A stretch of DNA of 64,000 nt from Sphingobium wenxiniae. GTDB lineage: Bacteria > Pseudomonadota > Alphaproteobacteria > Sphingomonadales > Sphingomonadaceae. The DNA is taken from contig NZ_VLKK01000006.1 in assembly GCF_007830065.1 (NCBI RefSeq), positions 178,381 through 242,380 of the forward strand, written 5' to 3'. The number at the start of each line of letters is the position of its first letter. Position 1 is the stretch's first letter. The notes below the pieces were generated by a model. That model worked only from the letters and a program-made list of their open reading frames with translations. It had not been told where the DNA came from and made no database searches. Positions 6,810 to 42,545 of this stretch are shown piece after piece. The translations under genes and the position numbers were made by a program.

Positions 6810-6974
6810 ATGACCATCAAGGAGGTTTCCGATTACCTCAAGCTGGCTGAGAAAACAGCCTATCGCCTCGCTGCCGAAGGAAAGATCCCCGGGTTCAAGG
6901 TTGGGGCCTCCTGGCGCTTCCGGAAGAGCGAGATTGACCGATGGATTATCGCTCAAGAGCAGGGGCGTGCCTGA
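6810..6974 (+). CDS. Excisionase-type helix-turn-helix protein (HTH_17)
   Basis: A 54-residue DNA-binding protein: MTIKEVSDYLKLAEKTAYRL opens a MerR-like winged helix, and GKIPGFKVGASWRFRKSEID is the wing and second helix typical of the excisionase family. ATG 6810 has GGAG nine bases upstream; a longer extension to 6714 lacks family sequence. It is the first gene of the defence operon, 17 bp before the helicase start. Such small HTH proteins in phage-defence operons are usually taken as regulators; it could also act as a recombination directionality factor if the locus is mobile. Confidence 0.8.
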   Translation: MTIKEVSDYLKLAEKTAYRLAAEGKIPGFKVGASWRFRKSEIDRWIIAQEQGRA

Positions 6975-6991
6975 TCCATGGGGAATTCGAA

Positions 6992-9900
6992 GTGACTGTT
7001 CTCGAAGACCTGAAAAACGGGGCTGTCGTTCAGGGCATTATACCCAGCCAGCCCGTAGAAATTGTGTCCGTCGACTGGATAGGCCAGCAGGCCGTCAATC
7101 TCGTCTACCGCGTCCCTGGTGGGTCGGTGGCAGAGACCACGCTCTATCGCGACGATGAGCACCGCCTGTCCGTTGAAACCCGCGGCCACGCTTGGTCCTT
7201 TGACGCCGACGGCGCTCTGCTCCGGCTGGTGACCGAGGCAAACCGGATCAAGCTGGCCCACTTCTTCGACCCCTACCTCGCCATCCACACCAGCCTGGTC
7301 GAGCCCCTGCCGCATCAGATCTCTGCGGTATACGGCGAGATGCTCACGCGCCAGCCGCTAAGGTTCCTGCTGGCCGATGACCCGGGCGCCGGCAAGACGA
7401 TCATGGCCGGCCTGCTGATCAAGGAGCTGATTGCCCGCAGTGATCTCGAACGCTGCCTGATCGTGGCGCCAGGCAGCCTAGTCGAACAGTGGCAGGATGA
7501 GCTCGGCCAGAAGTTCGGCCTGGAGTTCGACATACTCACCCGCGACATGATCGAAACATCCCGGTCCGGAAACGCTTTCAACGATCACCCGCGGCTCATC
7601 GCGCGCCTGGACGTGCTGGCCCGCAATGAAGACCTGCAGCAGAAACTCTCCAGTTCCACCGAGTGGGATCTAGTGATCTGCGACGAAGCCCACCGCATGT
7701 CGGCGTCCTATTTCGGTGGCGACGTGAAATACACCAAGCGTTACCAGCTGGGCCAACTGCTGGGCCAGGCGTCGCGCCACCTACTGCTCATGTCGGCCAC
7801 ACCCCACAACGGCAAGGAGGAGGACTTCCAGCTGTTCATGGCCCTGCTGGATGGCGACCGGTTCGAGGGCCGCTTCCGAGACGGCGTCCACTATGCCGAC
7901 ACGGCCGATATGATGCGTCGCCTGACCAAAGAGGAACTGCTCCGGTTTGATGGCCGACCACTTTTCCCGGAGCGCCGCGCCTACACCGTAAAGTACGAGC
8001 TCTCGCCTGTGGAGGCCGAACTCTACAGTGCCGTCACCGAATACGTCCGGACAGAGATGAACCGCGTTCAGAGGTTTGCTGATCAGGATGGCAAGAAGCG
8101 CAACAACGTCGGATTCGCCTTGCAGATCCTGCAGCGCCGCCTCGCATCGTCGCCGGCCGCGATCTACCAGTCCCTGAAGCGTCGTCGCGAACGCCTCGAA
8201 AACCAGCTCGCAGAGGCGCGTCTTGCTCGCCGCGGTGGTCGGACCGACTTCAGCGTCGTGAACGTGCGGGAAGACGACCTGCGCGACATTGAGGAATACG
8301 GCCAGGACGAGGTCGATGAGATCGAGGACCTGATCTCGACCGGTGCGACCACCGCCGAAACCATCGAGCAGCTGGAGATCGAGGTCCAGACCCTCAAGGG
8401 TCTGGAGAGCATGGCGTTGAACGTTCTCGGCTCAGGCCAGGACACCAAGTGGACCCAGCTCAACCGCATCCTCGACGATGACCTGATGGTCGATGCCGAT
8501 GGCAACCGGCGCAAGCTGATCATCTTCACCGAGCCCAAGGACACCCTGCATTATCTCGTCGACAAGGTGCGGGCGCGCCTTGGCAAGCCTGACGCTGTCG
8601 ATGTGATCCATGGTGGCGTCACCCGTGAAGAACGACGCAAGATCGTCGAGCGGTTCATGCAGGACCGCGACATGCTGGTCCTCATCGCCAATGACGCAGC
8701 CGGCGAAGGCGTGAACCTTCAGCGCGGCCACCTGATGGTGAATTACGATCTGCCCTGGAACCCCAACAAGATCGAACAGCGCTTCGGCCGTATCCACCGG
8801 ATCGGCCAGACCGAGGTCTGTCATCTCTGGAACCTCGTCGCGGCCGACACCCGTGAGGGCGAGGTTTATGGCCGTCTGCTGGAAAAGCTGGAGGCCGCCC
8901 GTGAAGCGCTCGGCGGCCGCGTCTACGACGTCCTGGGCGAATTGTTCGAAGGCACGGCCCTGAAGGACCTGCTGTTCGAGGCAATCCAGTACGGCGAACA
9001 GGAGGATGTCAAAGCCCGCCTGTTCCAGGTGGTCGACGGAGCCGTTGATCAGGACCACCTACTGCGGCTGCTTGAGCGCCGGGCGCTCACCAACGACACC
9101 ATGCCCCAGACCAAGGTGCATGAGTTGCGGCTGGAAATGGAAAGGGCTGAGGCCCAACGGCTTCAGCCCCACCACGTTCAGAGCTTCTTCGTCGAGGCCT
9201 TTCAGCACCTGGGTGGCCAGATCAAACGCCGGGAGGAAGGCCGCTGGGAAATCCTTCATGTGCCCGTGGTCCTGAGAGAGCGCGACCGACAGATCGGCTC
9301 GGGCGCGCCGATCCAGAAGAGGTACGAGCGGATCTGCTTTGAAAAGGGCCGGATCAATCAGCAGCCAGTGGCGGCCTTCCTCTACCCGGGGCATCCGCTG
9401 ATGGAGGCGGTGATCAGCGTCATCCGCGAGCAGTACGACCACCTGATGAAGCGCGGCGCTGTTCTGGTCGACGATACCGACCCCGGAGAGGGCATCGAGG
9501 CCCTGTTTCTGCTCGAACACAGCGTGCAGGACAGCCGCCTGACCTCCACAGGCAAGCCGCACATTATTTCCGAGAAGCTGCAGTTCGCGGCGATCGACAA
9601 GGATGGCAGGGCCACGGACGCCGGGATCGCGCCGCACCTCAATCTGAGGCCGGCCACCCCCGCCGAGGTCGCCCTGGTCGATGACCTCCTGCATGAGGAC
9701 TGGCTGCGCAACGATCTGGAGAAGACAGCCGTTCGCTTTGCCACGGTGGAGCTGGCTCAGAGTCATGTCGCCGACGTCAAGGCCCGTCGGGTTCCAGAAA
9801 TCGACAAGGTCGAACAGGAAGTCCGCGCGCGGCTGAAAAAGGAAGTGAACTACTGGGACGCCCGGGCCTTCGAGCTCAAGGAAGAAGAACGGGCCGGCAA

Positions 9901-10498
9901 GAAGACACGCCTTAACTGGCAGAACGCCCAGCGCCGTGCAGAAGACCTGGCTGAACGGCTTAAGCGCCGGATGGCGATCCTGGAGCAAGAGCGGTTCATT
10001 TCATCCCAGCCACCGCGGGTGCGGGGCGGCATGATCGTCATTCCGCGCGGATTGCTGCAGGCACGTCAGCCAGAAGGTGGCGCTGGAGGTGGCGGCTTTT
10101 CTGAAGACCCGGTTGCCCGCCGGTTGATCGAGATCGCCGCCATGACTGCAGTGATCAATGCGGAACTTGCGCTCGGCAATTCGCCCAAGGACGTTTCGGC
10201 CCAGAAGGTCGGCTACGACATCGCATCCTACGACCCCAAGACGGATCACCTGCGCTTTATCGAGGTCAAGGGCCGGATCGATGGTGCCGATAGCGTGATG
10301 ATCACGCGGCAAGAGGTCATCACCTCCCTGCATGAGCCGGACAAATTCATCCTGGCGATTGTTCAGGTCGAGGCCGGGTTCGCCCGAGAACCGCGCTATG
10401 TTCGCGGCGCTCTCGACACGCGTGAACCCCCGTTTGAACAAAACGCCATTCAATTCAATATCAATCGTCTATTGGAAAGGGGCGAGATTCCATCATGA
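6992..10498 (+). CDS. SNF2-type DEAH helicase with C-terminal DUF3883 nuclease-like domain
   Basis: A protein of 1168 residues from GTG 6992 (GGGGA eight bases upstream; the in-frame ATG 6941 lies inside the HTH gene). Walker A DDPGAGKT is near residue 130, the DEAH box (CDEAHRMS) near 230, then SATPHNGKEEDFQLF, and motif VI QRFGRIHRIGQ near 600: a superfamily 2 SNF2-like translocase. Residues about 1040-1130 contain a DUF3883 domain with GYDIASYDP and IEVKGR, resembling the D/E-x-K core of restriction-type nucleases. It is the helicase subunit of a helicase-methylase-ATPase defence operon and may translocate on and cleave foreign DNA. Its stop overlaps the next start by 4 bp (ATGA), indicating translational coupling. 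Confidence 0.9.
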   Translation: MTVLEDLKNGAVVQGIIPSQPVEIVSVDWIGQQAVNLVYRVPGGSVAETTLYRDDEHRLSVETRGHAWSFDADGALLRLVTEANRIKLAHFFDPYLAIHTSLVEPLPHQISAVYGEMLTRQPLRFLLADDPGAGKTIMAGLLIKELIARSDLERCLIVAPGSLVEQWQDELGQKFGLEFDILTRDMIETSRSGNAFNDHPRLIARLDVLARNEDLQQKLSSSTEWDLVICDEAHRMSASYFGGDVKYTKRYQLGQLLGQASRHLLLMSATPHNGKEEDFQLFMALLDGDRFEGRFRDGVHYADTADMMRRLTKEELLRFDGRPLFPERRAYTVKYELSPVEAELYSAVTEYVRTEMNRVQRFADQDGKKRNNVGFALQILQRRLASSPAAIYQSLKRRRERLENQLAEARLARRGGRTDFSVVNVREDDLRDIEEYGQDEVDEIEDLISTGATTAETIEQLEIEVQTLKGLESMALNVLGSGQDTKWTQLNRILDDDLMVDADGNRRKLIIFTEPKDTLHYLVDKVRARLGKPDAVDVIHGGVTREERRKIVERFMQDRDMLVLIANDAAGEGVNLQRGHLMVNYDLPWNPNKIEQRFGRIHRIGQTEVCHLWNLVAADTREGEVYGRLLEKLEAAREALGGRVYDVLGELFEGTALKDLLFEAIQYGEQEDVKARLFQVVDGAVDQDHLLRLLERRALTNDTMPQTKVHELRLEMERAEAQRLQPHHVQSFFVEAFQHLGGQIKRREEGRWEILHVPVVLRERDRQIGSGAPIQKRYERICFEKGRINQQPVAAFLYPGHPLMEAVISVIREQYDHLMKRGAVLVDDTDPGEGIEALFLLEHSVQDSRLTSTGKPHIISEKLQFAAIDKDGRATDAGIAPHLNLRPATPAEVALVDDLLHEDWLRNDLEKTAVRFATVELAQSHVADVKARRVPEIDKVEQEVRARLKKEVNYWDARAFELKEEERAGKKTRLNWQNAQRRAEDLAERLKRRMAILEQERFISSQPPRVRGGMIVIPRGLLQARQPEGGAGGGGFSEDPVARRLIEIAAMTAVINAELALGNSPKDVSAQKVGYDIASYDPKTDHLRFIEVKGRIDGADSVMITRQEVITSLHEPDKFILAIVQVEAGFAREPRYVRGALDTREPPFEQNAIQFNINRLLERGEIPS

Positions 10499-10932
10499 CC
10501 GCAAAAATAGGGTCAAAGCCTAAGGCTGTTGTCTATTCGTTTGAAGGCAGGTGGGAGGATTCGCTCCGCTCTGGTAAAGTGCGCGTGTTCTTTAGAAAGC
10601 GGCGCCCCGTTAACGTACCAGAACGCATATATTTATATGTAGGCGTCCCTATAAAAAAGATAATTGGGTATGCAGAGGTAGATAAAATTGCAGATATTTC
10701 CCAATCCGAAGCTATTTCAATTAAGTCTTATGGGCATATAACTAAAGACGAAATAGTCACCTATATGGGTGAAAGAAAATATATAAATGCCATTTATATT
10801 AAAAATCATAAAATATTTAAAACTCCACTATCTCTAAACTTTTTAGAGGAAAATTTTGGATTTAATCCACCCCAAAGCTTTTCCAATCTAGATGAGAAAA
10901 TGGAAGCAGAATTTATAGCGAGTGGACGATGA
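10495..10932 (+). CDS. Small ASCH/PUA-like domain protein embedded in the defence operon
   Basis: A 145-residue protein. SGKVRVFFRKRRP at residues 26-38, then ERIYLYVGVPIKKIIGYAEV at 43-62 and a late PPQSF at 125-129, match what I recall of the ASCH/PUA-like family COG4933 (G-x-K...EFRK, IYIYAS-P-K-IVGE, PPQSF). PUA-like folds bind RNA or modified bases. It overlaps both neighbours by 4 bp (ATGA at each end), so it is translated with the helicase and methylase. Its DNA is far more AT-rich than the helicase gene before it, with many AUA and AAA codons, pointing to separate acquisition. A role in sensing modified bases is inference. Confidence 0.72.
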   Translation: MTAKIGSKPKAVVYSFEGRWEDSLRSGKVRVFFRKRRPVNVPERIYLYVGVPIKKIIGYAEVDKIADISQSEAISIKSYGHITKDEIVTYMGERKYINAIYIKNHKIFKTPLSLNFLEENFGFNPPQSFSNLDEKMEAEFIASGR

Positions 10933-13721
10933 AAAAAAAGCTAATTGAAGTCGCCATTCCGCTTGAAGCAATCAATACGGCTTCGATAAGGGAAAAATCG
11001 ATACGTCATGGGCATCCATCTACGCTGCATTTGTGGTGGGCGCGACGCCCCTTAGCTGCGTGTCGCGCAGTTCTGTTTGCCCAACTCGTTGACGACCCCT
11101 CGAGCCATCCGGATAGGTTCCCGACCCCTAAAGCCGTGGAAGCGGAGCGGCTGCGACTGTTCTCGATTATTGAGGAACTAGTTCAGTGGGAAAGCACGAC
11201 AAATGACGAGGTTCTAGAGCGGGCGCGAGCCGAAATCAGAAGCTCTTGTGGCGAAGATCTCCCGCACATCTACGACCCATTTTCTGGTGGGGGCTCGATT
11301 CCACTAGAAGCCCAGAGGCTGGGATTGCCTTCCTACGGATCAGATTTGAACCCGATTGCAGTCATGATCGGGAAATCCATGATCGAAATCCCTCCCAAAT
11401 TCCTGCATCAAGCTCCTGTCCACCTGGGCGCTGGCGGTCGCACATCATATAGGTATGCGGAAGGCCTTGCCGAAGATGTGCAGCATTATGGCGAGTGGAT
11501 TCGCCAGCGAGCATTCGAGAGAATTGGGGAATACTATCCATCAGTCGAAATTCCCGTTGGCACCAATGCTGCCGGCGGAAAGAAGGATGGCAAGGTAGTT
11601 GCGTGGATATGGGTTCGAACGGTTCCAAGTCCTGATCCAGCATTTGCTGATGTCGAAGTGCCATTGCTTTCGAGCTTCACACTTTCTTCAAAGAAGGGGC
11701 GTGAAGTTTGGATCGAGCCAATTGTTGATAAAAATTCAAAAACAATCTTATTTAGCATCCGCACTGGAGGGACCAGTGCCGAGATCAAAGCTGCCGAAAT
11801 GGGAGCAACTGCTGGTAAACGGCAGGGTTTTCGTTGCCTGATTTCTGACGCTGCAATAACATATGATTACATTCGAACTATTGGGCAAGCTGGCAAGATG
11901 GGCACGAGGCTTGTAGCAATTGTCGCCGAGGGCAAACGGGGGCGTATATTTCTTCCTGCAAATGATGAGCACGAACGCATAGCGCACTCGGCAAATCCAG
12001 AGTGGAAGCCTAGACTAGTTCTTCAAGGTAAGGCACAAGTGAATGTCGCAAACTACGGCATAACGACAGTCGGAGACCTATTCACAAATAGACAATTGCT
12101 GGCATTAGATACAATTTCGAACCTTATATCTGAGGTTAAAAAGAAAATCGAGAGCGATGCAATTAGCCGCGGCATGGCTGATGATGCAAGGCATCTCAGA
12201 GATGGTGGTGCAGGCGCACTCGCTTATTCCGAAGCGGTTAGCCTTTATCTTTCTTTTGGTGTCAGCAGGCTGGCTGACATATCTAATGCTCACTGCAACT
12301 GGTCCAGGTCGGCAAATCAGGCGGTCCACTTATTTGGCCGGCAGGCCATCCCGATGGTCTGGGATTTCGCTGAAACAGCTCTTTTCTCAGACATGGCAGG
12401 AGACTTCCGCACTTCTCTGAATAGCATCGTTAAGGCGTTGGTGCGATTGAACCCTGCATCTGAAGGATTTGAAGTGCAGCACGATGCACAGTCCATGTCC
12501 TATCCGGAAAATGCGGTTATAAGCACCGACCCCCCATACTATGACAACATTGACTATGCAGATTTATCTGATTTCTTTTTCGAACTAATGAAGAGGAATG
12601 CTTCAGATATTTATCCAGATATATTTCAAGTTCTTGCGACTCCAAAAAATGAAGAGCTTGTCGCTTCTCCATCAAGGTTTGGTGGAAAAGATGCCGCGGA
12701 AAGCCATTTTCTAAATGGAATGAGTGTCGCAATTGCTAATATGGCTAGGGGGGCAAATTCGAATTTTCCAACGACGATATATTATGCATTCAAGCAGAGT
12801 GAAATTCAGGCTGAAGGCATTAGTTCAACCGGGTGGGCTACATTTTTATCAGCCGTCATGTCGGCTGGATTTCAGATAGTTGGCACATGGCCTATCCGGA
12901 CCGAACGCGATACTGGGCTTAAAGTCGGGATGAATGTTCTGGCGAATTCCGTCGTGCTGGTGTGCCGAAAAAAGATCTCTACTGCGGAGGTCATCACTCG
13001 TGCGGAATTCATCCGCGCTCTAAAGCGAGAATTGCCGCCAGCAATCGCTGAGCTTCAGGCCGCCAACATTGCCCCCGCAGACATGCCCCAATCGGCCATT
13101 GGCCCCGGCATGGGTGTGTTTTCGCGCTACAAAGGGGTTCTAGAGTCCGATGACAGCCCGATGAGCGTAAAAGCCGCCTTGCAACTGATCAACCGGGAGC
13201 TTGATGACTATCTCGGCGGTATTCAGGGGGAGTTCGATGCGGACACCCGTTTTGCCATTACCTGGTTTGAGCAGAACGGGTTGAAGGCCGGTGATTATGG
13301 CACAGCGAACAACATCGCCACTGCGCGTGGGATTTCGGTCGAAAGCGTTAAGCACGCCGGGATCGTCGAAAGCCAAGCCGGCAAGGTTCGAGTTCTCCGC
13401 CGGGACGAACTGGATGACAAATGGGAGCCTGGGACCGATCAACACCTGACGATCTGGGAATGCCTTCAGCATCTTGTGCGCTTGCATGAAAAGGACGGAA
13501 TTTCACATGCAACAAGCGTCCTGCTTAAGAAGATCGGCGACAAGGGCGAGGCTGTTAAGGACCTCGCGTATATCCTTTATGATATCAACGCAAACAAGCG
13601 TCAGGACGCCAAAGAGGCGATCGCCTACAATGCTCTGATTGCAGACTGGACTGAACTGTCCCGCCAAGCTGCGACGGTATACGATACGCGTGGCGACCTT
13701 CAGCAGCGACTTGACCTTTAA
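10929..13721 (+). CDS. DUF1156 DNA methyltransferase of the defence operon
   Basis: A 930-residue methylase. The N-terminus (KKLIEVAIPLEAIN...HPSTLHLWWARRPLAA) is the DUF1156 signature. The SAM-binding motif DPFSGGGSIPLEA is at residues 116-128 and the catalytic DPPYYDN near residue 535, the order and sequence of an amino-methyltransferase acting on adenine N6 or cytosine N4. It probably marks host DNA so that the helicase/ATPase machinery spares it. Base composition changes inside the gene: up to about 12960 it is AT-rich like the preceding small gene, and after that it resembles the GC-richer helicase and ATPase genes. It is coupled to the upstream gene by a 4 bp overlap and followed by the ATPase after 12 bp. 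Confidence 0.9.
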   Translation: MKKKLIEVAIPLEAINTASIREKSIRHGHPSTLHLWWARRPLAACRAVLFAQLVDDPSSHPDRFPTPKAVEAERLRLFSIIEELVQWESTTNDEVLERARAEIRSSCGEDLPHIYDPFSGGGSIPLEAQRLGLPSYGSDLNPIAVMIGKSMIEIPPKFLHQAPVHLGAGGRTSYRYAEGLAEDVQHYGEWIRQRAFERIGEYYPSVEIPVGTNAAGGKKDGKVVAWIWVRTVPSPDPAFADVEVPLLSSFTLSSKKGREVWIEPIVDKNSKTILFSIRTGGTSAEIKAAEMGATAGKRQGFRCLISDAAITYDYIRTIGQAGKMGTRLVAIVAEGKRGRIFLPANDEHERIAHSANPEWKPRLVLQGKAQVNVANYGITTVGDLFTNRQLLALDTISNLISEVKKKIESDAISRGMADDARHLRDGGAGALAYSEAVSLYLSFGVSRLADISNAHCNWSRSANQAVHLFGRQAIPMVWDFAETALFSDMAGDFRTSLNSIVKALVRLNPASEGFEVQHDAQSMSYPENAVISTDPPYYDNIDYADLSDFFFELMKRNASDIYPDIFQVLATPKNEELVASPSRFGGKDAAESHFLNGMSVAIANMARGANSNFPTTIYYAFKQSEIQAEGISSTGWATFLSAVMSAGFQIVGTWPIRTERDTGLKVGMNVLANSVVLVCRKKISTAEVITRAEFIRALKRELPPAIAELQAANIAPADMPQSAIGPGMGVFSRYKGVLESDDSPMSVKAALQLINRELDDYLGGIQGEFDADTRFAITWFEQNGLKAGDYGTANNIATARGISVESVKHAGIVESQAGKVRVLRRDELDDKWEPGTDQHLTIWECLQHLVRLHEKDGISHATSVLLKKIGDKGEAVKDLAYILYDINANKRQDAKEAIAYNALIADWTELSRQAATVYDTRGDLQQRLDL

Positions 13722-13733
13722 GGACGATAGAAG

Positions 13734-16700
13734 ATGGCCAAGAGCACCCGCCAATATGTCTTTGAAGGCATGGAGCTTCTTCCCGAAGCCCTGGTCCCGT
13801 TCGTTGAGAAGCGCCTAGAAAGTTCACTCACCGGTCACTGGCAGGTGGAGGTGGTGCAGCGTGTATCCGGCCTGAAGCCCAACTCCAATGGGGAGGTCGG
13901 CTGGGATCAGCAGGGTCTTTTGAAGACCATGATGGCGTTCTGGAAGGACGCGTTCTCCATGGTGCTAGGGCACCCGGAGCGCTCCTACATCTCAGAGCTT
14001 CTCGATGTGCGAAATAAGCTCTCGCACAATGAGACCTTCACCTATGACGACGCGGAGCGCGCCCTTGACACCATGAGGCGGCTCATGGAGTCGATCAGTG
14101 CAGGGGATGTGGCGACCGAGATCGCCAAGATGCGCGATACGATCCTGCGCACCAAGTTCACCGAGTTGCAGCGCAATGAGGAACGTCGGAAGACCCACCG
14201 CCTTGACATCTCGGTCGAAACCGTTGCCGGCCTCATGCCCTGGCGCGAAGTGGTGGAGCCCCACCAGGATGTCGCCACCGGCGAGTTCCAGCAGGCGGAG
14301 TTCGCCGCGGATCTTGCCAAGGTGCACAATGGCAGCGCGCCGTCAGAGTACAAGAACCCGACCGAGTTCTTCGCTCGCACCTATCTAACAGAGGGCTTGA
14401 GCAACCTACTGATCGGCGCAGCCAAGCGGCTGTCCAGCGCAAGTGGCGATCCGGTCGTTGAACTTCAGACCAATTTTGGCGGCGGCAAAACGCACTCGAT
14501 GTTGGCGCTCTATCACATGGCTAGCGGCACGGCGGCCCAGGACCTTCCGGGACTAGACCAGTTGCTGTCGCAGCACGGACTGACCGTTCCTAAGAAGATC
14601 AACCGGGCTGTCTTGGTCGGCACCTCGCGCGGCCCGCAGGATGTCTTAAGCGTTGAAGGTGGTCTGAAAATTCGCACCACTTGGGGCGAATTGGCTTGGC
14701 AGCTGGGCGGGGCCGAAGGCTTTACCATGGTAGCCGACAATGACGAGCGTGGGATCGCTCCAGGCTCCAACCTTCTGGAAGCCCTCTTCAAGAAGTATTC
14801 GCCATCGCTGATCTTGATCGATGAGTGGGTCGCTTATCTTCGTCAGGTCTACAAGGTGGAGGGCCTGCCATCGGGCTCCTTCGACGCCAACCTCTCCTTC
14901 GTCCAATCGCTGACAGAAGCGGTAAAGGCGAGCCCAGGCACATTGCTTGTGGCGTCGCTTCCAGCATCGCAGATCGAGGTCGGCGGCGAAGGCGGGCAAG
15001 AAGCGCTCGTGCGGCTCAAACAGACCTTCAGCCGCGTGGAGTCATCATGGCGGCCGGCTTCTCAGGAAGAGAGCTACGAGATTGTCCGGCGACGCCTGTT
15101 CAAGGAAATCCCCAGCGATCGCTTCCATCACCGCGACAACACGCTGAAGCAGTACGCAAAACTCTATCGTGAAAACGCTGACGATTTCCCGAAGGGATGT
15201 GCAGACGAGGACTACCGGCGCAAGCTGGAAAAGTCTTACCCGATCCATCCCGAGATGTTCGACCAGCTCTATACGAGCTGGGGCTCGCTGGAGAAGTTCC
15301 AGCGCACGCGTGGTGTGCTGCGTCTCATGGCGCAAGTCATCCACGAGCTTTGGATGGGCAATGATCCGTCGGTCATGATCATGCCAGGGAGCGTGGCCAT
15401 CAGCTCGGCACGCGTGGAGCCAGAGTTGCTCCATTATCTCGATGCCAGCTGGCAATCGATCATCGCTGGAGACGTCGATGGCATTACATCAACGCCATAC
15501 AAGATTGACCAGTCTGCGCCGAACCTAAACCGCTACTCCGCGACCCGCCGGGTCGCGCGCACCATTTTCATGGGCACAGCGCCCACACATGGGCAGGAGA
15601 ACAAGGGGCTCGACGACAAGCAGATCAATCTGGGTGTGGTCCAACCAGGAGAACGCCCTGCGATCTTCGGGGATGCATTGAGGCGTCTCACCAACCAGGC
15701 CAAGTTCATGCACAGCGACCTTGGGCGCTATTGGTATTCGATGTCGGCGAGCCTGAACCGGATCGCCGCAGATCGTGCCGGGCAAATCGAGGAGGCGTTG
15801 GTTCTTCTGGAGATCGACAAGGCGCTGGGGAGCTACATCAACGGCCTGTCCGATCGCGGGCATTTCGACGCCGTACAGGTCGCGCCGGGCAGCTCGTCCG
15901 ACGTGCCTGACGAAGCTGGAGGCGTGCGCGCAGTCGTGCTGGGTGTGGCGCACTCCCACACCGGTCGCGAGGGCTCAGAGGCCATGACCGAGGCTAAGGA
16001 TATCTTGTTGCAGCGGGGCACGACCCCGCGCGTCTATCGCAACATGCTGGTCTTCCTGGCTGCGGAACAGCGCCAGCTAGACAACCTTAAGGCCTCCATG
16101 CGCTCGGCCTTGGCCTGGGCGGAGATCGTCCGGGAAATCGACCGGCTGAACCTGACCCAGAGCGACAGCGCCCTGGCGAAGGCCAAGCTCGTCGAGGCTA
16201 ACGAAACGCTGAAGACGCGGCTCAAGGAAGCCTGGTGCTATCTGATCTACCCTGTGCAGGAAACCGCACAGGCCGATCTGGAATGGACGACGGCAAAAGT
16301 TCCGGCCCAGGACGGATTGCTGGCCAGGGCAAGCAAGAAGCTTGTCAGCGATGAGGGCCTGCTCCCCGAGCTCGGCCCGGCCCGCCTTGACCGCGAGCTG
16401 CAGAAATACATCTGGAACGGCAAGTCCCACCTGCATCTCAAGGACCTGTGGGAGTATCTGAACCGCTACACCTACATGCCGCGGATCAAGAACCGCGAGG
16501 TTCTGGCCAAGACGGTTCAGGCAGCCGTCGGCGGTATGCTCCCGGGCCCGTTTGCGTATGCCGAGCGATGGGACGAGGCCAAGAAGACCTATGCTGGTCT
16601 GGCGATTGACCACGCAGGTGGGGCGCAGATCGTCATTGATAGCGAGTCCGTTATCATCCAGCCGGATGTCGCTGAGGCTAATCGGCCCAAGCCAGCGGTT

Positions 16701-17033
16701 GTGCCGGAGGGCGGAGGCGCCGCTCCGGGGACTACGCCACCAATCCCCGGCGGTGGTCAGGCGGGAACACCTCCAATCGAACCTGGACCAGTGGTCGAGA
16801 AGAACCCGACGCGCTTCTCAGGAACAGTCATGATCTCACCAGATCGGCCGGCGCGTGTCATGCACCAGATCGTTGAGGCCATTGTCGAACAGTTGACCAC
16901 GATGGCCGGCAGCGAGGTGACCCTCAGGCTTGAGATTGACGCGGAGGTTCCGACAGGTCTGGACCGCGCCAAAGTCCGGACCCTGATCGAGAATGCGACC
17001 ACGCTTGGGTTCATCGAGAAGATCATCAAATAG
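13734..17033 (+). CDS. DUF499 ATPase with N-terminal Swt1-HEPN-like domain
   Basis: A 1099-residue protein. Residues 1-115 form a helical domain ending in LLDVRNKLSHNE, where R93-x4-H98 is the HEPN-type motif seen in Swt1-like domains. A P-loop (NFGGGKTHS) lies near residues 248-256 and a Walker B SLILIDEWVAY near residue 360, the pattern of DUF499 ATPases found with DUF1156 methylases in anti-phage loci. A proline/glycine-rich linker at about 990-1020 precedes a C-terminal domain. It is the last gene of the operon and is followed by a strong hairpin. The HEPN motif raises the possibility of RNase activity, but many HEPN domains are only structural. Confidence 0.88.
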   Translation: MAKSTRQYVFEGMELLPEALVPFVEKRLESSLTGHWQVEVVQRVSGLKPNSNGEVGWDQQGLLKTMMAFWKDAFSMVLGHPERSYISELLDVRNKLSHNETFTYDDAERALDTMRRLMESISAGDVATEIAKMRDTILRTKFTELQRNEERRKTHRLDISVETVAGLMPWREVVEPHQDVATGEFQQAEFAADLAKVHNGSAPSEYKNPTEFFARTYLTEGLSNLLIGAAKRLSSASGDPVVELQTNFGGGKTHSMLALYHMASGTAAQDLPGLDQLLSQHGLTVPKKINRAVLVGTSRGPQDVLSVEGGLKIRTTWGELAWQLGGAEGFTMVADNDERGIAPGSNLLEALFKKYSPSLILIDEWVAYLRQVYKVEGLPSGSFDANLSFVQSLTEAVKASPGTLLVASLPASQIEVGGEGGQEALVRLKQTFSRVESSWRPASQEESYEIVRRRLFKEIPSDRFHHRDNTLKQYAKLYRENADDFPKGCADEDYRRKLEKSYPIHPEMFDQLYTSWGSLEKFQRTRGVLRLMAQVIHELWMGNDPSVMIMPGSVAISSARVEPELLHYLDASWQSIIAGDVDGITSTPYKIDQSAPNLNRYSATRRVARTIFMGTAPTHGQENKGLDDKQINLGVVQPGERPAIFGDALRRLTNQAKFMHSDLGRYWYSMSASLNRIAADRAGQIEEALVLLEIDKALGSYINGLSDRGHFDAVQVAPGSSSDVPDEAGGVRAVVLGVAHSHTGREGSEAMTEAKDILLQRGTTPRVYRNMLVFLAAEQRQLDNLKASMRSALAWAEIVREIDRLNLTQSDSALAKAKLVEANETLKTRLKEAWCYLIYPVQETAQADLEWTTAKVPAQDGLLARASKKLVSDEGLLPELGPARLDRELQKYIWNGKSHLHLKDLWEYLNRYTYMPRIKNREVLAKTVQAAVGGMLPGPFAYAERWDEAKKTYAGLAIDHAGGAQIVIDSESVIIQPDVAEANRPKPAVVPEGGGAAPGTTPPIPGGGQAGTPPIEPGPVVEKNPTRFSGTVMISPDRPARVMHQIVEAIVEQLTTMAGSEVTLRLEIDAEVPTGLDRAKVRTLIENATTLGFIEKIIK

Positions 17034-17043
17034 GTAACGCCAT

Positions 17044-17074
17044 CACCAAGGCCGGCTCGATGCTGGCCTTGGTG
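17044..17074 (+). terminator. Stem-loop at the end of the defence operon
   Basis: A perfect 10 bp stem, CACCAAGGCC / GGCCTTGGTG, with an 11-base loop begins 10 bases after the DUF499 stop. It lies between the rightward defence operon and the leftward phage genes and could act in both directions. No U run follows on the plus strand. Confidence 0.55.
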
Positions 17075-17101
17075 AATGTCGTACTCCCCGCAGCAACCAT
17101 G

Positions 17102-17361: not shown

Positions 17362-17898
17362 TCAGGCCTCGTTGGGCGACAGCACGCCGTTGGCCGCGAG
17401 CTGGACCGGCTTCGCGCTTGCAGGCGCCTTGCGGTAGGTAGGCCGGCGAATGGCGATGCAGCGGTCGCGGGCGATCCGGGTGATGGTCACACCGTCGGAC
17501 TGGTTGCCGCCCAGCACGTGGAAGGCGCCGTAGTCCTCGCCAACATAGAGCCCGACATGGCCCGAACCCTGTCCGCGGCGGAACACCAGGATATCGCCCA
17601 GCTGGGCCCGGTCGGCGGGATTTCCGAACTTCGCCCAATTGCGCGCCCAGAGCGGACCTTCCACGATCGGCCTGCCAGCGCGTTTGGGGACCACGGCCAT
17701 GAACAGCCCGCACCACGGAATGGCGTCGTCATTATAGATCTTGGCGAGGCCCGTCTCCTTTGCCCAGCCGAGGATCGCGGGATTGTCGGCCGGTCCGACG
17801 ACCTCGAAGGTGCCGTAGAGCTTGCGGGCTTCTTCCAGCATCCTGGGCAGCGGACGCAGGTCATCGATCCAGCCATAGGCCGGTGGTAGCGGTTTCAT
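17362..17898 (-). CDS. Phage endolysin, NlpC/P60-CHAP-like (TIGR02594 type)
   Basis: A 178-residue cell-wall hydrolase. The catalytic Cys candidate is C63 in AIPWCGLFMA and the catalytic His is H114 in GSGHVGLYVGE, preceded by LGDILVF, the arrangement of papain-like peptidoglycan amidases/endopeptidases. ATG 17898 follows GGGAGACATCC; sequence further upstream in frame overlaps another small gene and is not family-like. It lies downstream of the head-connector genes, next to the holin candidate, so it is the lysis enzyme of the element. In a complete phage tail genes would normally lie before it; here they are absent. Confidence 0.85.
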   Translation of the reverse strand: MKPLPPAYGWIDDLRPLPRMLEEARKLYGTFEVVGPADNPAILGWAKETGLAKIYNDDAIPWCGLFMAVVPKRAGRPIVEGPLWARNWAKFGNPADRAQLGDILVFRRGQGSGHVGLYVGEDYGAFHVLGGNQSDGVTITRIARDRCIAIRRPTYRKAPASAKPVQLAANGVLSPNEA

Positions 17899-17915
17899 GG
17901 ATGTCTCCCGGGAAG

Positions 17916-18124
17916 TTAGCGGCCGGACAGGCCTTTGACGGTGGCGTAGAGGACGGCGAGCGCGGTCGCGAAGGTCGACAGCCACTTGACGAACCGGACC
18001 ATGCCAGTCGCGGTGTTCCAGGCCTCGAGGAGGTCCTTCACATCCGCGCGCAAGGCGAGAAGCTCGGCGCGCACGTCGGCATGCTCCGCCTTCAGGCTCG
18101 GCGCTTCTTTTCCATATCATCCAT
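17916..18124 (-). pseudogene. Small membrane-anchored phage protein interrupted by a -1 frameshift
   Basis: ATG 18124 has a strong AGGAGA site but the frame stops after ten codons (MDDMEKKRRA). Shifting back one base at the GGAAAAG run gives a 69-residue protein: a helical, charged segment (EHADVRAELLALRADVKDLLEAW) followed by a C-terminal membrane helix (FVKWLSTFATALAVLYATV) and stop at 17916. This layout fits small phage lysis- or tail-associated proteins. The break could be a real mutation, a homopolymer sequencing error, or programmed -1 slippage at the A-rich site. Confidence 0.55.
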
Positions 18125-18143
18125 GGGTTTCTCCTGCTGACGG

Positions 18144-18470
18144 TCACGCCGCCGCGCGGATGGCGGTCACTTCCACACCCTCGTTCAATGCTAGCGGCAC
18201 GACGGAGGTGATATTCCACAGCCCGCCGGCAAAGCTGATGCGGTCAAGGACGCTGAGCGCCAGCGTCTCGCTGTTGCCCAGCACCCGAAACGTCGCTGGC
18301 TGCGAGGCTGAGAGCTGCGCCGCCTCTCGCCGTTCAGCGCCTGTACCCCAGATGACGCCCGCCCAGAGGATTGCGTAATCGGTCCAGGTTTCAATCTCAC
18401 CGCCATAATCGTCTATGACGACCGTCTTGCGCTGGAACACGATCCTGCGATTCCGCGGTCCGGCCCTCAT
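18144..18470 (-). CDS. Phage head closure / head-tail adaptor protein
   Basis: A 108-residue protein starting at ATG 18470 (MRAGPRNRRIVFQRKTVVIDDYGGEIETWTDY), the usual opening of SPP1 gp16-like head closure proteins: a short R-R-I-x-F-Q strand, a variable W, then WAGVIWGTGAERREAAQ. It seals the filled capsid and joins it to the tail. The start overlaps the previous gene stop (TGATG). It is the last morphogenesis gene before lysis genes; no tail genes follow. Confidence 0.8.
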   Translation of the reverse strand: MRAGPRNRRIVFQRKTVVIDDYGGEIETWTDYAILWAGVIWGTGAERREAAQLSASQPATFRVLGNSETLALSVLDRISFAGGLWNITSVVPLALNEGVEVTAIRAAA

Positions 18471-19012
18471 CAGACGCCCCGGCGGTGGTTGCACAGCAGG
18501 CTGTCGAGATTGGTCCAGTCGCCTGCTTTGGCATGCTCGCGCCGATCGAAGCTGTCAGCGATGAACAACAGCATGGCGTGGAGCACATCGTCGGGAGGAA
18601 GGGTGCCGACCGACGCGGTGAGCGTAATGCGTGATCCCGGCTGAACCGCCGGCCATGCCGCTCCCGGCTTCAGGACGATGGCCGCATCAAGCCCGTCAGC
18701 GCGCAGTTCATAAATAGCAGCGGACATGGACTGCGCGGCGCCGGCCACATCAATATACTCGATCGACGTGACGGAATTGACCGGCGCGAACGGAAGCCGC
18801 GCCATATCGGTAAAGCTGTCGCAATGCGCCACCAGCGTTCGCTCAGCGAATGCCACGCCGCAATAGGCTTCCGCGTGCGCCCGCGCAGAGGCGATGTACA
18901 GATCGAGCGCATCGTCTTCGTCAGTGCCAATGACCCGGCACTGGGCCTTGGCCTCGGCGAGGCTGACCGGCTCGACCGCAGGCGCAACGGGGGCGACCGG
19001 GTACCAGCTCAT
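18470..19012 (-). CDS. Phage head-tail connector (gp6-like)
   Basis: A 180-residue connector. Typical features are EPVSLAEAKAQCRV near the N-terminus, then DALDLYIASARAHAEAYCG and FAPVNSVTSIEYID. These proteins form a ring under the portal for tail attachment. It overlaps the upstream 66-residue gene by 4 bp and the head closure gene by 3 bp, so the three are translationally coupled. Confidence 0.85.
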   Translation of the reverse strand: MSWYPVAPVAPAVEPVSLAEAKAQCRVIGTDEDDALDLYIASARAHAEAYCGVAFAERTLVAHCDSFTDMARLPFAPVNSVTSIEYIDVAGAAQSMSAAIYELRADGLDAAIVLKPGAAWPAVQPGSRITLTASVGTLPPDDVLHAMLLFIADSFDRREHAKAGDWTNLDSLLCNHRRGV

Positions 19013-19209
19013 GGTGCTGTCTTCTTCCTGGTACCGGCACGCAGCTCGGGTACCGATTTCACCGTCCGCTCCACCTTGGGCGCGGCGTCTGGCACCGCGA
19101 AGCCCGCCTCAATCAGGCTGCAGGCTTCCTCGTCGCTGCATATATATTCGTCGCCCGCGCTCCATGCGCCGTTTGCGCCGGACAGGCTGGCGGTGAGTTT
19201 GACCTTCAT
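19009..19209 (-). CDS. Small phage protein between capsid and connector
   Basis: A 66-residue hypothetical protein with the pattern SAGDEYICSDEEACSLIEAGFAV followed by a basic tail (RAGTRKKTAP). Proteins of this type commonly lie between capsid and connector genes in HK97-like elements, where their function is not established. The fold resembles a short SH3/ankyrin-binding-like strand-helix unit, but no catalytic residues are visible. It is coupled to the connector gene by an ATGA overlap. Confidence 0.7.
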   Translation of the reverse strand: MKVKLTASLSGANGAWSAGDEYICSDEEACSLIEAGFAVPDAAPKVERTVKSVPELRAGTRKKTAP

Positions 19210-19283
19210 GGGATGCTCCTCTCCAAAAGGGCGCGGACACGCCGCTCAGGAAATGGGCGGAGCCGAAGCCCCGCCCGATCCAG

Positions 19284-20543
19284 TTACGATGCCTTGGTGA
19301 TGAGGTGCTTGACCGCGGCGGTATCGCCGAGCTCGCCGTCGAAACGGATCAAACCTGCGATGCCAAGGTCAGGCCAGAAGCGCTCACGCATCACACCGAT
19401 GACCGGCGCGCCGACCTTGCGGACAAAATACTTGCCGAAGTCACCGAACACAGCCACCCGCGCGGCGGCCGCGGCGCCAGGCACAGAGCCAATCGCCTGA
19501 TTAACGTGGTAGTTGTAGCCCAGCAGCGAACCGGGGACGCCGGCGCGCACGTCGCCCATCTGCCACAGATAGTTGCCGGCGCCGTCCTTGAGCTTGCGGA
19601 TCAGCTTCAACGTGCTGTCATTGAACATGAAGCCGACCTTCGGTCCGGTGCGGTATGCCGGGTCGACCGAATGCACGAGGTCGATCAGCTCATCCGCGAT
19701 GATGGCGGTGGCCGATGCGGTCGTGACACCCAGTGTGGACGCGGTGACGATGCCGTTCGGATCACCCGTGCCATCGCCGATGGTCAGTTCACGGTTGGCA
19801 ATACGGCCAAGACGCTCGCCGAGCAGCGAACCCAGCAGCGCTTCCATGTTGAAGATGCTGTCGGTGTCGAGTTCCCACGACCAGCGGATAAACTCGGTGT
19901 CGTAGGCATAGGCATCAAGGCTCTTCTGTCCGAACGTCACGTCACTGCCGCCATCGTCGGTCAGGGCGGTGGCTTCGGTGTGCTTCACAGCCGGAACAGC
20001 CGTGTCATCGGTGGTCGGAATCTTGATCGGGTTGCCGCTTGCCGTGACCATTTCCGTCACGACGCTGCCGTCATACATCGGACCCCATGCCAGCATCGAC
20101 TTGATGATCTGGTTCGACAGTTCGGTCGGGACGGTGAAACCGCCCGCCGTGGTGGTGCCAGCCGTCTGTGCACGAAATTCAGCGCGGCCCTTTGCGAGGA
20201 CGGCGCGCTCTTCCTGCGTCAGGTCTTCGAGCGGGCCGCAGATGGCCTTGGCGAAGGCGGTACGATATTCGACGGCCTCGACCTCATCAACGCCGCGCGC
20301 TTCACTGTCCTTGGGGTGCGGGCGCTGCCTGGCGCGCGCTTCATCGGCGCGGGCCTCGGCGGCTGCGGTGCGCTCTTCGCGGGCGATTTCCACTTCCACC
20401 TTGTCGAAGTCGGCCATGATCATGTCGTGGCGCGCTTCCAGTTCGGCGGTGCGGCTTTCGTCGGTGTTGGCCTTGATCTCGTCGAGGGCTTCGCGGGCCT
20501 GGGTAACGAGGCGGCCGCGTTTGTCGTGCAATTCAGTGGTCAT
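19284..20543 (-). CDS. HK97-type major capsid protein
   Basis: A 419-residue capsid precursor. Residues 1 to about 110 are charged and coiled-coil rich (the scaffolding delta domain), followed by a probable protease cleavage region and the mature shell protein from about AQTAGTTTAGGFTVPTEL onward. The shell part has the usual motifs: KIPTTDDTA, WSWELDTDSIFNMEALLG, RELTIGDGTGDPNGI, and a C-terminal FVRKVGAPVIGVMRERF. It lies directly after the prohead protease and portal genes, the conserved HK97 order. A hairpin at 20568-20586 lies just upstream and may adjust its expression. Confidence 0.95.
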   Translation of the reverse strand: MTTELHDKRGRLVTQAREALDEIKANTDESRTAELEARHDMIMADFDKVEVEIAREERTAAAEARADEARARQRPHPKDSEARGVDEVEAVEYRTAFAKAICGPLEDLTQEERAVLAKGRAEFRAQTAGTTTAGGFTVPTELSNQIIKSMLAWGPMYDGSVVTEMVTASGNPIKIPTTDDTAVPAVKHTEATALTDDGGSDVTFGQKSLDAYAYDTEFIRWSWELDTDSIFNMEALLGSLLGERLGRIANRELTIGDGTGDPNGIVTASTLGVTTASATAIIADELIDLVHSVDPAYRTGPKVGFMFNDSTLKLIRKLKDGAGNYLWQMGDVRAGVPGSLLGYNYHVNQAIGSVPGAAAAARVAVFGDFGKYFVRKVGAPVIGVMRERFWPDLGIAGLIRFDGELGDTAAVKHLITKAS

Positions 20544-20567
20544 GAGAATATTCCTTAAAGCAAGAAG

Positions 20568-20586
20568 GCCGCCAACACGGCGGCCT
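20568..20586 (-). terminator. Stem-loop between protease and capsid genes
   Basis: A perfect 7 bp stem GGCCGCC / GGCGGCC with a 5-base loop, followed on the minus strand by TTCTTGCTTT. It lies between the protease stop and the capsid start. It could be a partial terminator or an mRNA processing/stabilising structure that raises capsid expression over protease. Confidence 0.45.
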
Positions 20587-20641
20587 CGATGCCTTTCCCA
20601 AGGGCAGACGATGGGCTCCGCGTTGACACGCGGGAATCTCG

Positions 20642-21238
20642 TTAAATCTTGCGGAATCTCTGTTCGGCAGCGGCCTTGCGCTCAGCAATGCGGGCCTCGG
20701 CGCGCTTGCGGTTATGGTCCGCGCGGGCTTGTCCGGCCGCCGTCCGCGCGGATTCAAGCGAGCGGAGCGCAAGAGACGTATCGTCATAGGCCGGGAAGGC
20801 GACGGCACTGACCTCGCGCAGATCGACCGCCTGGATGGTGCGGACCGGGATATCGCCGGTCTCGTCCCAGAGCTGACGGGTGACGATGAACCCGAACGAC
20901 ATGCCCGAGATGTCGCCGCGGGCAATCAGCGTCGCAAGATCGCGGCCATCCTGCGTGTCGGGCAGATCGATTTCGACCGCGAGGCCCACGTCATCTTCTA
21001 TAAGCCGCAGGGTGCCCGCCGTAGTCCGGCCGATCACGCGCCCGCTGTCATGGTCGATCAGTGCGCGCACGTCACCGGCGATCGTGCCCTGGAAGGCCCC
21101 GGGGGCAATGATCTCCCGGAACTGACCGCCAATGTCGGCGGCGCTGCCAAACACTGCTGCATAACCGGCGATGGTGGGGCCATCACCGGCCGATCGGATA
21201 GCAAGGGGACGCACCAGCGCACGTCGTTCCATCGTCAT
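20642..21238 (-). CDS. HK97-family prohead protease
   Basis: A 198-residue serine protease that cleaves the capsid scaffold domain. The visible motifs are IAGYAAVFGS, ALIDHDSGRVIGRTTAGTLRL with the catalytic His, and RGDISGMSFGF with the catalytic Ser. The C-terminal 40 residues are Arg/Ala-rich and probably helical. It follows the portal gene with a 4 bp overlap. Confidence 0.93.
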   Translation of the reverse strand: MTMERRALVRPLAIRSAGDGPTIAGYAAVFGSAADIGGQFREIIAPGAFQGTIAGDVRALIDHDSGRVIGRTTAGTLRLIEDDVGLAVEIDLPDTQDGRDLATLIARGDISGMSFGFIVTRQLWDETGDIPVRTIQAVDLREVSAVAFPAYDDTSLALRSLESARTAAGQARADHNRKRAEARIAERKAAAEQRFRKI

Positions 21239-22473
21239 ACGGTATCTCCATTGGGTACGGCAGCGGCGTCGGTGCCTGTCGCCGCGTTACTGCCCAGCGG
21301 CACAGTCGCGCCCTGGATGTAAAGCTGATCCCCTTGCGGTCGCGGCGGCCGGTTCTCCAGCGCCCGGGCTTCATCGGGGGTAAGGATCGCGTTCTGGATC
21401 CCCTGGGCAAGCCCGGCCATGCGGGCGGCAAAGTCGCCGCGCATCAGGCCGTCGAGATTATGCTCGACATAGCGTGCACTGCCGCGGGGCCCGAATAGCT
21501 TGAGGTTGAGCTCTTCTTCGAACGCCTTGGCCCATTGCGCAATGAGGTGTTTGACCAGGTGGAGGTCCTGCTGCTCGGTGTTGGAAAATGTGCCGTGGGT
21601 CAGGTCCTGCAGAAATACCGGCGGCAAATTATAGACCCGGGCAATCTCCTCGACCTGAAAGCGGCGGGCCTCGGTCATCTGCCCCTTGGCGGGATCGAAC
21701 CCGACCTGTTTGAGCTCGTGACCGGGCGGCATCGGAAACACCGGCTTGCGGCTCGCCTTGGCCGCCTCGATGGCGCGGTGAATATCGCCCATCGCCCGCT
21801 TCATCGCGTCCGCGCCCTGCGGCAGCGGGCCCGACAGGGCGAGTGGCGGAACCCCGCCGCCCGCGAAGAAATCCCCGGCATAGTCACCCATGGCCAGTGC
21901 CAGCGCGACTGCCTTGGCGCCGTTGATGATCGGGCTGTAGGAACCAAGCTGGTCGCGCTTCAAGAGATACGGAATGTCGATGACGTCGGCGGCCGGATAG
22001 GCCTGCGCTTTGCCGGCAACGGCATAATATTTGCGGCCATCGATCCGCTTGACGGTGGTGGCGGCCGGATCCATCGGCCAGATGGCAATAATATTGGCAC
22101 CGCTGCGCTCGATCCACGACACGCCGCGCCCGCCGGTGAACACCTGCTGCCACATATATTTGCGCCAGCCGAAGCTGGTCCATTCCGGATTGGGGGCTTC
22201 ATTGAGCAGCCGCTGGATGCCGCCGCGGATCCGCTCTGCCCCGTCGTCCTTGGTGCGATAGGCATGGAGCGGCAGGTTCGCCATGGATGAGGCCAGGAAC
22301 GTGACCGCCGCCGAGACCGCCGGCACGGTGAGCGCGCTGTCGATGGTGACGCTGGGTAGATTGCCCGACTGGACACCGAAGAAAGCGAGGAAGTTTTCGG
22401 AACTCACCGGGATGGTCGGGTTCTCGATCGAAGCCCGCGTCTCGCGCCCGAGCCAGTCACGCCAGCCCATCAC
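21235..22473 (-). CDS. Phage portal protein, HK97 type
   Basis: A 412-residue portal subunit (twelve form the ring through which DNA enters the capsid). Typical motifs are TVPAVSAAVTFLASSMANLPLHAY near residue 50, RLLNEAPNPEWTSFGWRKYMWQQ, and RRFQVEEIARVYNLPPVFL. It begins MMGWRDWLG; either Met could be the start. It overlaps the terminase gene by 4 bp and the protease gene by 4 bp, so packaging and head genes form one coupled operon. Confidence 0.94.
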   Translation of the reverse strand: MMGWRDWLGRETRASIENPTIPVSSENFLAFFGVQSGNLPSVTIDSALTVPAVSAAVTFLASSMANLPLHAYRTKDDGAERIRGGIQRLLNEAPNPEWTSFGWRKYMWQQVFTGGRGVSWIERSGANIIAIWPMDPAATTVKRIDGRKYYAVAGKAQAYPAADVIDIPYLLKRDQLGSYSPIINGAKAVALALAMGDYAGDFFAGGGVPPLALSGPLPQGADAMKRAMGDIHRAIEAAKASRKPVFPMPPGHELKQVGFDPAKGQMTEARRFQVEEIARVYNLPPVFLQDLTHGTFSNTEQQDLHLVKHLIAQWAKAFEEELNLKLFGPRGSARYVEHNLDGLMRGDFAARMAGLAQGIQNAILTPDEARALENRPPRPQGDQLYIQGATVPLGSNAATGTDAAAVPNGDTV

Positions 22474-27185: not shown

Positions 27186-27277
27186 GTGACCCCCGGTCGT
27201 TAACTCGCGGCTGCGTGAAGTTCTGATCCCCAGCGGTTTCCCACCCGAGAGCGACTGAGAGCGAACCGCCCCCCGGG

Positions 27278-42334: not shown

Positions 42335-42545
42335 TTTCGGCCGAACCCTTGATGTGGTCCGGGTGAAAAGAGACAAAGGCTATTTAGAGACTGATTTTTG
42401 CGCTTCCGGCAGCATCCGAGGTTCGGACGGCGTAGCCAAAATGGCGCGGAAGCTGGGGGTTTGTGGCCCCAAAAAGACCCATGTCATTGGTTCTCATTCA
42501 GATGTTAGCAGACGAAGCGATTATCGAACCTGACACTGTGTCGAG
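42335..42545. repeat. Decayed copy of the tRNA-Ser 3' end and its flank
   Basis: This stretch aligns with 45575-45790 in the same orientation. Shared blocks are GGGTGAAAAGAGAC, GAGACTGATTTT, CCGAGGTTCGGA and GGCGCGGAAGCTGGGGGTTT, ending in a degenerate version of the tRNA-Ser acceptor and T-arm (GATGTT then GC-GA and CGAACC). It is a relic of duplication or island insertion at the tRNA. Confidence 0.8.

Follow-up and report, generated by a model that had tools for sequence, protein, structure and literature searches.

The DNA analysed here, a window of 64,000 nucleotides from Sphingobium wenxiniae (contig NZ_VLKK01000006.1, positions 178,381 to 242,380), carries what its genes indicate is a complete and apparently intact operon of the Hma (helicase-methylase-ATPase) or Type-1 BREX-related (BR) kind, whose activities are predicted (Table 1). 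Its layout is that described in an earlier note on this DNA, five genes on one strand joined by 4-bp overlaps or short gaps, and the open reading frames and the sequence bear this out: gene 3 overlaps HmaA and HmaB by 4 bp each, and 12 bp separate HmaB from HmaC. The operon is Hma because PADLOC assigns HmaA, HmaB and HmaC outright (1590, 1151 and 953 bits, the best models by a wide margin, on adjacent genes of one strand), as the note had proposed for its trio of helicase, DUF1156 and DUF499 proteins; the Pfam search that it proposed returned matches above the cut-offs to NOV_C (the same family as DUF3883; 67 bits), DUF1156 (103 bits) and DUF499 (118 bits). The suggested helix-turn-helix (HTH) regulator likewise matches HTH_17 above its cut-off (63 bits), its regulatory role being predicted. 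The hairpin said to end the operon was also found, folding at -33.9 kcal/mol over 17030-17090 (z -7.0), with 0 of 200 shuffles equally stable; since the sequence holds no T run behind it, it is not a textbook intrinsic terminator. The note had further held that the operon is not simply DISARM or a Type I system, and the alternative models score under their curated cut-offs. Candidates tried and set aside were DISARM (DrmD at 382 bits against a cut-off of 610, the HmaA model being far better), DUF1156_antiphage (128 bits against 1000) and DUF499_antiphage (170 bits against 1200).

Table 1. Features of the Hma operon, in coordinates of the window
Feature	Position	Strand	Assignment or basis
Hma operon, five genes (HTH, HmaA, gene 3, HmaB, HmaC)	6810-17033	all +	open reading frames and sequence
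HTH gene	6810-6974	+	HTH_17 (excisionase-type), predicted regulator
HmaA	6992-10498 (alternative ATG start 6941)	+	SNF2 helicase, C-terminal NOV_C/DUF3883, predicted PD-(D/E)XK nuclease
Gene 3	10495-10932	+	ASCH-fold protein, predicted; in the HmaA/HmaB slot
HmaB	10929-13721	+	DUF1156 amino-methyltransferase, predicted N6-adenine
HmaB hypervariable insert (codons 240-520)	11646-12488	+	predicted target recognition domain
HmaC	13734-17033	+	HEPN_Swt1 N-terminal, then DUF499 AAA+ ATPase
Block unlike nearest relatives	10459-13001	no strand	gene 3 and HmaB codons 1 to ~690; blastn, GC, AU test
Hairpin behind HmaC	17042-17078	+	folding energy against shuffles

The three core proteins retain the residues expected of their predicted roles. 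HmaA has six Pfam matches, among them SNF2, Helicase_C and, at residues 1063-1144 (numbered from 6941), NOV_C; D1093 is found in 45 of 45 homologues and E1108 and K1110 in 44 of 45, and the protein is predicted to end in a PD-(D/E)XK nuclease with its residues intact. In HmaB the DPPY motif at 534-537 is invariant in all 47 aligned rows and there is no PCQ motif, a combination that fits an amino-methyltransferase, for which we predict an N6-adenine mark. An AlphaFold model of this protein (mean predicted local distance difference test score, pLDDT, 73.9) has a class I S-adenosylmethionine (SAM)-methyltransferase fold over residues 12-683, into which a long insert is set after strand 2: it is preceded by the strands at 113-116 and 135-138 and followed by one at 513-516, and so lies between strands 2 and 3, and the structural neighbours of the model align over 158-189 residues scattered across ~12-683. 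Mean pairwise identity within the insert is 36-55%, against ~90% at codons 1-60 (63 rows). HmaC, which the earlier note had described as a DUF499 ATPase only, has in addition an N-terminal HEPN_Swt1 domain (residues 12-122, 93 bits in Pfam) with its RX4H motif at 93-98; the PADLOC HmaC match begins at residue 167, so this part falls outside the model. R93 and H98, like the P-loop G251-K252-T253, are present in 81 of 81 sequences.

Within this operon, one block is unlike its counterpart in the nearest relatives. The related loci used are those 80 of 175 whose HmaC is most similar, a choice that does not make them an even sample. The nearest of them (L001, L002 and L071) share 89-93% DNA identity with the window along HmaA (blastn), and in all three the homology ends at exactly 10458, 40 bp before the end of HmaA, to resume at 86-88% identity at 13005 (L001), 13002 (L002) and 12924 (L071). 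Between the breaks L002 has no match and L001 has pieces of 46 and 92 bp, and all such pieces lie at the start of HmaB; the HmaA and HmaB alignments stand 14 bp apart in these relatives, and gene 3 is absent. Along HmaB, identity between the window and the three is 62-75% over codons 1-230, 31-48% over codons 240-520 and 91-96% over codons 700-930. Three plasmid records, searched with a query from 10400, match only from 12938-12987 on, at 75-77% identity. Base composition also differs along the operon: gene 3 has a GC content of 0.37 and HmaB codons 1-690 one of 0.44-0.53, lower than HmaB codons 691-930 (0.56), HmaA (0.62) and HmaC (0.605), and at third codon positions GC is 0.315 in gene 3, 0.445 in the insert and 0.418 in HmaB codons 521-690, against 0.781 in HmaA and 0.749 in HmaC. 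In quick trees, HmaC unites the window with L001, L002 and L071 in one clade (Shimodaira-Hasegawa-like approximate likelihood ratio test, SH-aLRT, 100), and HmaB codons 240-690 reject that same clade in the approximately unbiased (AU) test (p-AU 0.0003). It is therefore likely that 10459-13001 was exchanged as a block, HmaA, the C-terminus of HmaB and HmaC staying fixed.

Similar breaks recur elsewhere among the related loci. L056 and L059 share 92% identity in HmaA, 92.9% in HmaB codons 1-240 and 92.6% from codon 633 on; their slots (the HmaA/HmaB junctions) do not match, and within HmaB codons 241-632 a match exists only over 74 bp at codons 514-538. The same two-block pattern is found in L059/L063, L063/L064, L052/L064, L068/L069 and L010/L012, where homology stops at codons 238-296 and returns at codons 610-695. 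Pairwise identities across 42 loci (those of the 80 plus the window with three near full-length proteins and a defined slot) correlate closely between HmaA and HmaC (r 0.92, Mantel p 0.0005), in part between HmaA and the HmaB C-terminus (r 0.50), and hardly at all between HmaA and HmaB codons 1-230 (r -0.01), the insert (r 0.10, p 0.11) or codons 520-690 (r 0.04). Two blocks thus vary independently, the HmaA/HmaB junction and HmaB codons ~240 to 610-695. One locus, L008 (Mesorhizobium sp. Root552), has at ~8673-8785 an apparent deletion that removes the nuclease end of HmaA and the recognition half of HmaB; because the two genes look fused there, it was left out of the identity correlations, the AU test, the cargo permutation and the junction counts (53/60 and 5/62) given below, and was retained among the 63 HmaB rows, the 62 slots and the 55 filled junctions.

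Gene 3 occupies a position that is seldom empty in this clade. Among 60 loci in which HmaB is near full length and the junction was measured, the stretch between HmaA and HmaB is at least 150 bp long in 53 and shorter than 60 bp in the other 7, whereas the HmaB/HmaC junction reaches at least 150 bp in only 5 of 62. HmaA ends in ATGA, GTGA or TTGA, where a possible start overlaps the stop, at 43 of 55 filled junctions and at 7 of 7 empty ones; because all the empty junctions have it, this ending is no mark of cargo. A more evenly drawn set of genomes gave 19 loci (G446, with HmaA split across two contigs, was left out), 17 of which hold both HmaA and HmaB, with 6 slots empty (<60 bp) and 11 filled. 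Among the related loci, 62 supplied 67 slot proteins of at least 70 residues, which group into 20 clusters, one of which consists of minus-strand open reading frames and is probably spurious; L026, with an odd gene order, and L081, the copy from the window's own genome, are not part of this list. Twenty of these proteins were scanned with Pfam and 10 with PADLOC, as was L052 in addition, and the matches were to TmtA/Sacsin, GmrSD, DUF4917/PDC-S21, HEC-07, PDC-M11B and DUF6680, with an ASCH match slightly below the Pfam cut-off; the remaining scanned proteins gave nothing above cut-off in either the 20 Pfam or the 10 PADLOC scans. In the evener sample, HEC-09 (NYN) was found in the slot of L110, to which the slot of L111 is near-identical in its starting sequence; one further locus holds PDC-S06 with PDC-M38A and M38B, and another HEC-08.

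Several other observations concern the same slot. Its commonest cargo in the clade is a Sacsin/TmtA-like protein of ~1,410-1,500 residues, found in 19 loci (for example L023, 2928-7169). Septu pairs (PtuA and PtuB) stand between HmaA and HmaB in two loci of the evener sample, L096 (4902-6876) and L114 (8787-10867), which fits the association with Septu that lies behind the naming of Hma as PMC8565338 gives it. Haematobacter missouriensis CCUG 52307 has two Hma operons on two contigs of the one strain (L020 and L021); one slot is empty and the gene in the other clusters with a GmrSD-type protein.

Slot cargo and the recognition insert of HmaB vary independently of one another. A shared cargo family does not predict similarity of the insert (60 loci, permutation p 0.41), and in L043/L066 and L053/L068 the inserts are alike (88% and 87%) with different cargo. 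Between cargo and HmaC similarity there is a link as long as the large Sacsin family is counted (p 0.0005); once it is removed, the mean HmaC similarities are 0.850 and 0.847.

For the cargo of the window itself, Pfam returned no match, and PADLOC matched gene 3 to PDC-M11B at 60 bits (three families listed, all of them PDC-M11B). The earlier guess of an ASCH/PUA-like protein is backed by a predicted fold of the ZmASCH kind and by a profile match to ZmASCH of Zymomonas mobilis (5guq, 5y6b, 5y6c). At ~25% identity, residues Y47, K53 and S128 of ZmASCH correspond to Y48, K54 and S128 of gene 3, and these are kept in 59 of 59 rows of an alignment of the close family, which has 25 invariant columns and excludes the shortest relative (P0060, 122 residues). 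A search of another 384 genomes from the class turned up three distant relatives: two adjoin a PDC-M11A protein (405 and 415 bits), and the third adjoins genes that look by eye ATPase-like and GNAT-like. No M11A partner lies next to gene 3, whose neighbours are HmaA and HmaB, and unpaired relatives likewise occupy the HmaA/HmaB slot of L015 and L030. By sequence, gene 3 is thus a PDC-M11B homologue without its partner, and we predict from its modelled fold that it is an effector that binds single-stranded RNA or cleaves RNA.

Taken together, we consider it reasonably probable that this is a complete Hma operon working as a restriction-modification-like anti-phage machine, with 10459-13001 likely exchanged as a block. 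HmaB would protect the host DNA by methylating the adenine amino group at a site that its variable insert recognises; the HmaC ATPase would hold HmaA on DNA without the mark, and HmaA would then translocate, its C-terminal PD-(D/E)XK domain doing the cutting. Should DNA restriction fail, the HEPN domain of HmaC would step in as a fallback, cleaving RNA and so stopping the cell, and gene 3 would be a further effector in the slot, one that, like ZmASCH, most likely binds or cuts single-stranded RNA. A swapped HmaB insert would then change the protected site, and a swapped slot gene would change the fallback. It is tempting to go further and to picture a fixed Hma chassis with two cartridges, HmaB ~240 to 610-695 and the HmaA/HmaB junction, that are swapped separately by homologous recombination through conserved flanks (the HmaA end, HmaB codons 1-240, and the HmaB C-terminus to HmaC), such that a lineage changes site and fallback at different times; here the cartridge would be an ASCH RNase without its PIN-GNAT-EVE partner, switched on when Hma is blocked. 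We offer this extension as a speculation that is rather doubtful in its entirety.

A number of points weigh against the account preferred here. The roles of all five proteins, and their activity, are predictions from sequence, and the HmaB model matches known structures weakly by Foldseek (best E 0.035). Between the window and its nearest relatives HmaB codons 1-230 differ as well, and L071 matches 578 bp of the block at 70% DNA identity at the HmaB start, so that the block here extends beyond the insert and its portion in HmaB cannot count as unrelated sequence. L001 forms a long branch in the tree used for the AU test, the exchange may have run either way, since the relatives may have lost gene 3, and rapid divergence could explain part of the block, if not its sharp DNA borders. 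Doubts also attach to the comparison with ZmASCH. The slot relatives in L015 and L030 carry N at S128, L015 also has M at K54, and the three distant relatives have G, Q or M at K54 with S128 retained. ZmASCH itself is described as a weak single-strand RNase, with K53E and S128A reported to reduce binding and only Y47F to cut less.

Other divisions of labour among the five proteins have to be weighed against this. The HEPN-DUF499 protein could be the main effector, stopping the infected cell, with DNA cutting by HmaA minor or absent. The invariance of RX4H would agree with this, as would the HEPN part in 7 of the 14 loci of the evener sample that match HmaC, its presence being read from the point at which the alignment begins; the other 7 show no match to the HEPN part, so that the Hma core seems to work without it, the nuclease residues of HmaA are equally conserved, and Rakesh and Krishnan (PMC12839542) treat the nuclease fused to the helicase as the primary effector, with HEPN as a backup. 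We regard such a reversal as unlikely. For gene 3, a role as a reader of modified DNA bases, directed against phages with modified genomes, deserves more serious thought than any other alternative, even if we lean towards an RNase. ASCH, EVE and YTH folds include binders of modified bases, and the fold-match lists for gene 3 contain EVE, YTH (one bound to N6-methyladenine, m6A, DNA), the McrB N-terminal domain and VcaM4I; EVE proteins are described as accompanying archaeal COG1743-DUF499-SNF2 operons, and the relevant part of PMC11411939 reports both that a GmrSD-type pair inside a Type I operon restricts phages whose DNA is hypermodified and that Hma clusters contain GmrSD-like genes. That gene 3 is instead a leftover partner of the toxin-antitoxin-like PDC-M11, regulatory or with no present function, would suit its PDC-M11B match and the M11A protein beside two of the three distant relatives and missing here. 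We find this quite unlikely, as conservation in the close family and the unpaired relatives in the same slot argue for a protein that works as a single gene.

The surroundings of the operon suggest one further alternative. Directly beyond the hairpin, on the minus strand at 17362-24323, lie phage structural genes encoding a lysozyme-like protein, a head-tail adaptor, a major head protein, a protease, a portal and a large terminase, and the operon might accordingly be cargo of this prophage that serves superinfection exclusion. Adjacency speaks for such an arrangement, which we nevertheless hold to be very improbable: a tblastn search of 50,697 phage records gave no match to HmaC, the nearest relatives sit, by eye, in other surroundings, partial matches occur on three plasmid records, and homology with L002 ends at 17094, short of the first identified phage gene. 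Because the phage records lack a match and the relatives are placed elsewhere, we infer that the operon travels independently or in the company of various elements. At E <= 1e-200, HmaA was found in 12 of 385 genomes from the class and in 11 of 398 from the phylum, the genome of the window being part of each count; Hma as a whole is widespread, Payne 2021 (PMC8565338) giving it in 26 phyla. Farther along the window, the phage-like region holds a fusion of a ParB-like domain with a DNA methyltransferase at 25899-27293 (PHROG 498, 590 bits), and a 157-nt direct repeat (42356-42512 and 45611-45767, 81% identical), the second copy of which abuts a tRNA-Ser(CGA) gene at 45761-45850, is possibly an integration remnant or a duplicated gene edge.

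At the other end of the operon, the HTH protein also matches the NCBIfam MAD1 model NF047737, at 81 bits barely over the cut-off of 80, and is the only one of the five proteins to match a mad model among the matches listed (for HmaA, the best 25 of 59 families). By tblastn, a homologue lies directly upstream of HmaA in only two of the 80 related loci, L002 (96%) and L018 (63%); the DNA of some of the others stops short of that position. HmaA itself probably starts at the GTG at 6992 rather than at the ATG at 6941: counted from the latter, the PADLOC match begins at residue 21, which is position 4 of the profile, and the column of codon 18 (6992) holds ATG or GTG in 27 of the 42 rows with a letter there and neither in the other 15, while 3 of 45 rows start downstream of it. 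The HTH gene and HmaA would therefore stand 17 bp apart, and the 34-bp overlap implied by the upstream start is likely not real.

The earlier note had called the mechanism of this type little studied, which holds only in part, the gene set having been described in 2013, named in 2021 and dissected in 2026. The architecture of HEPN-DUF499 with SNF2-DUF3883 is pointed out in PMC3710099, the name Hma comes from Payne 2021 (PMC8565338), and Type-1 BR is treated by Rakesh and Krishnan (PMC12839542), whose text cites an antiphage test of the helicase-nuclease from a paper on Halomonas. Nor is the HmaA/HmaB slot new, since Hma-embedded candidates with tested phage resistance have been published, according to the pertinent parts of PMC12111858, PMC12988326 and PMC11411939. 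Rapid divergence of recognition domains is noted in general in PMC12839542, where the string 'recombin' has 0 matches in the main text and sections 28, 29 and part 1 of 35 do not describe exchange of an insert block; we found the exchange pattern in none of the open-licence PMC papers searched, and some of it may be contained in the preprint of Payne 2024 or in the paper on Halomonas. What is new here is modest and leaves the kind of system unchanged: the exchange of a block in the recognition half of HmaB independently of cargo, and the assignment of gene 3. The way in which blocks are exchanged suggests that specificity is determined by HmaB codons 240-690, and this could be checked through the methylation motifs of naturally differing, otherwise near-identical operons. 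Likewise, the bias between the two junctions in this clade suggests where embedded defence genes should be sought, and the likeness to ZmASCH gives a protein without a Pfam match a concrete biochemical test.

Among known systems, Type-2 BR (PLD-helicase, DUF1156, DUF499), which we take to be the 'Gao restriction-like' system, has the DUF1156 and DUF499 families in common with the operon, but the window proteins score far under the NCBIfam cut-offs and no PLD domain is among the six Pfam matches of HmaA. Gene 3 belongs to the M11B half of PDC-M11 (ASCH with PIN-GNAT-EVE), here without M11A, and shares with ZmASCH a predicted fold and the three corresponding residues, its own cleavage being a prediction. 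In holding a foreign defence-type gene between Hma genes, the operon resembles those with the Hma-embedded candidates of Payne 2024, as PMC12111858, PMC12988326 and PMC11411939 describe them, yet gene 3 matches none of the models HEC-01 to HEC-09 despite its embedding position. With Type-1 BR it has in common a HEPN-fused DUF499 ATPase, in the HEPN form with RX4H N-terminal of DUF499, a DUF1156 methylase that in its model has an insert after strand 2, and a Snf2 helicase with a C-terminal PD-(D/E)XK domain of predicted activity. With Hma itself (Payne 2021), whose PADLOC HmaC model omits HEPN and to which the window adds an HTH and an ASCH gene, it shares HmaA, HmaB and HmaC in the same order.

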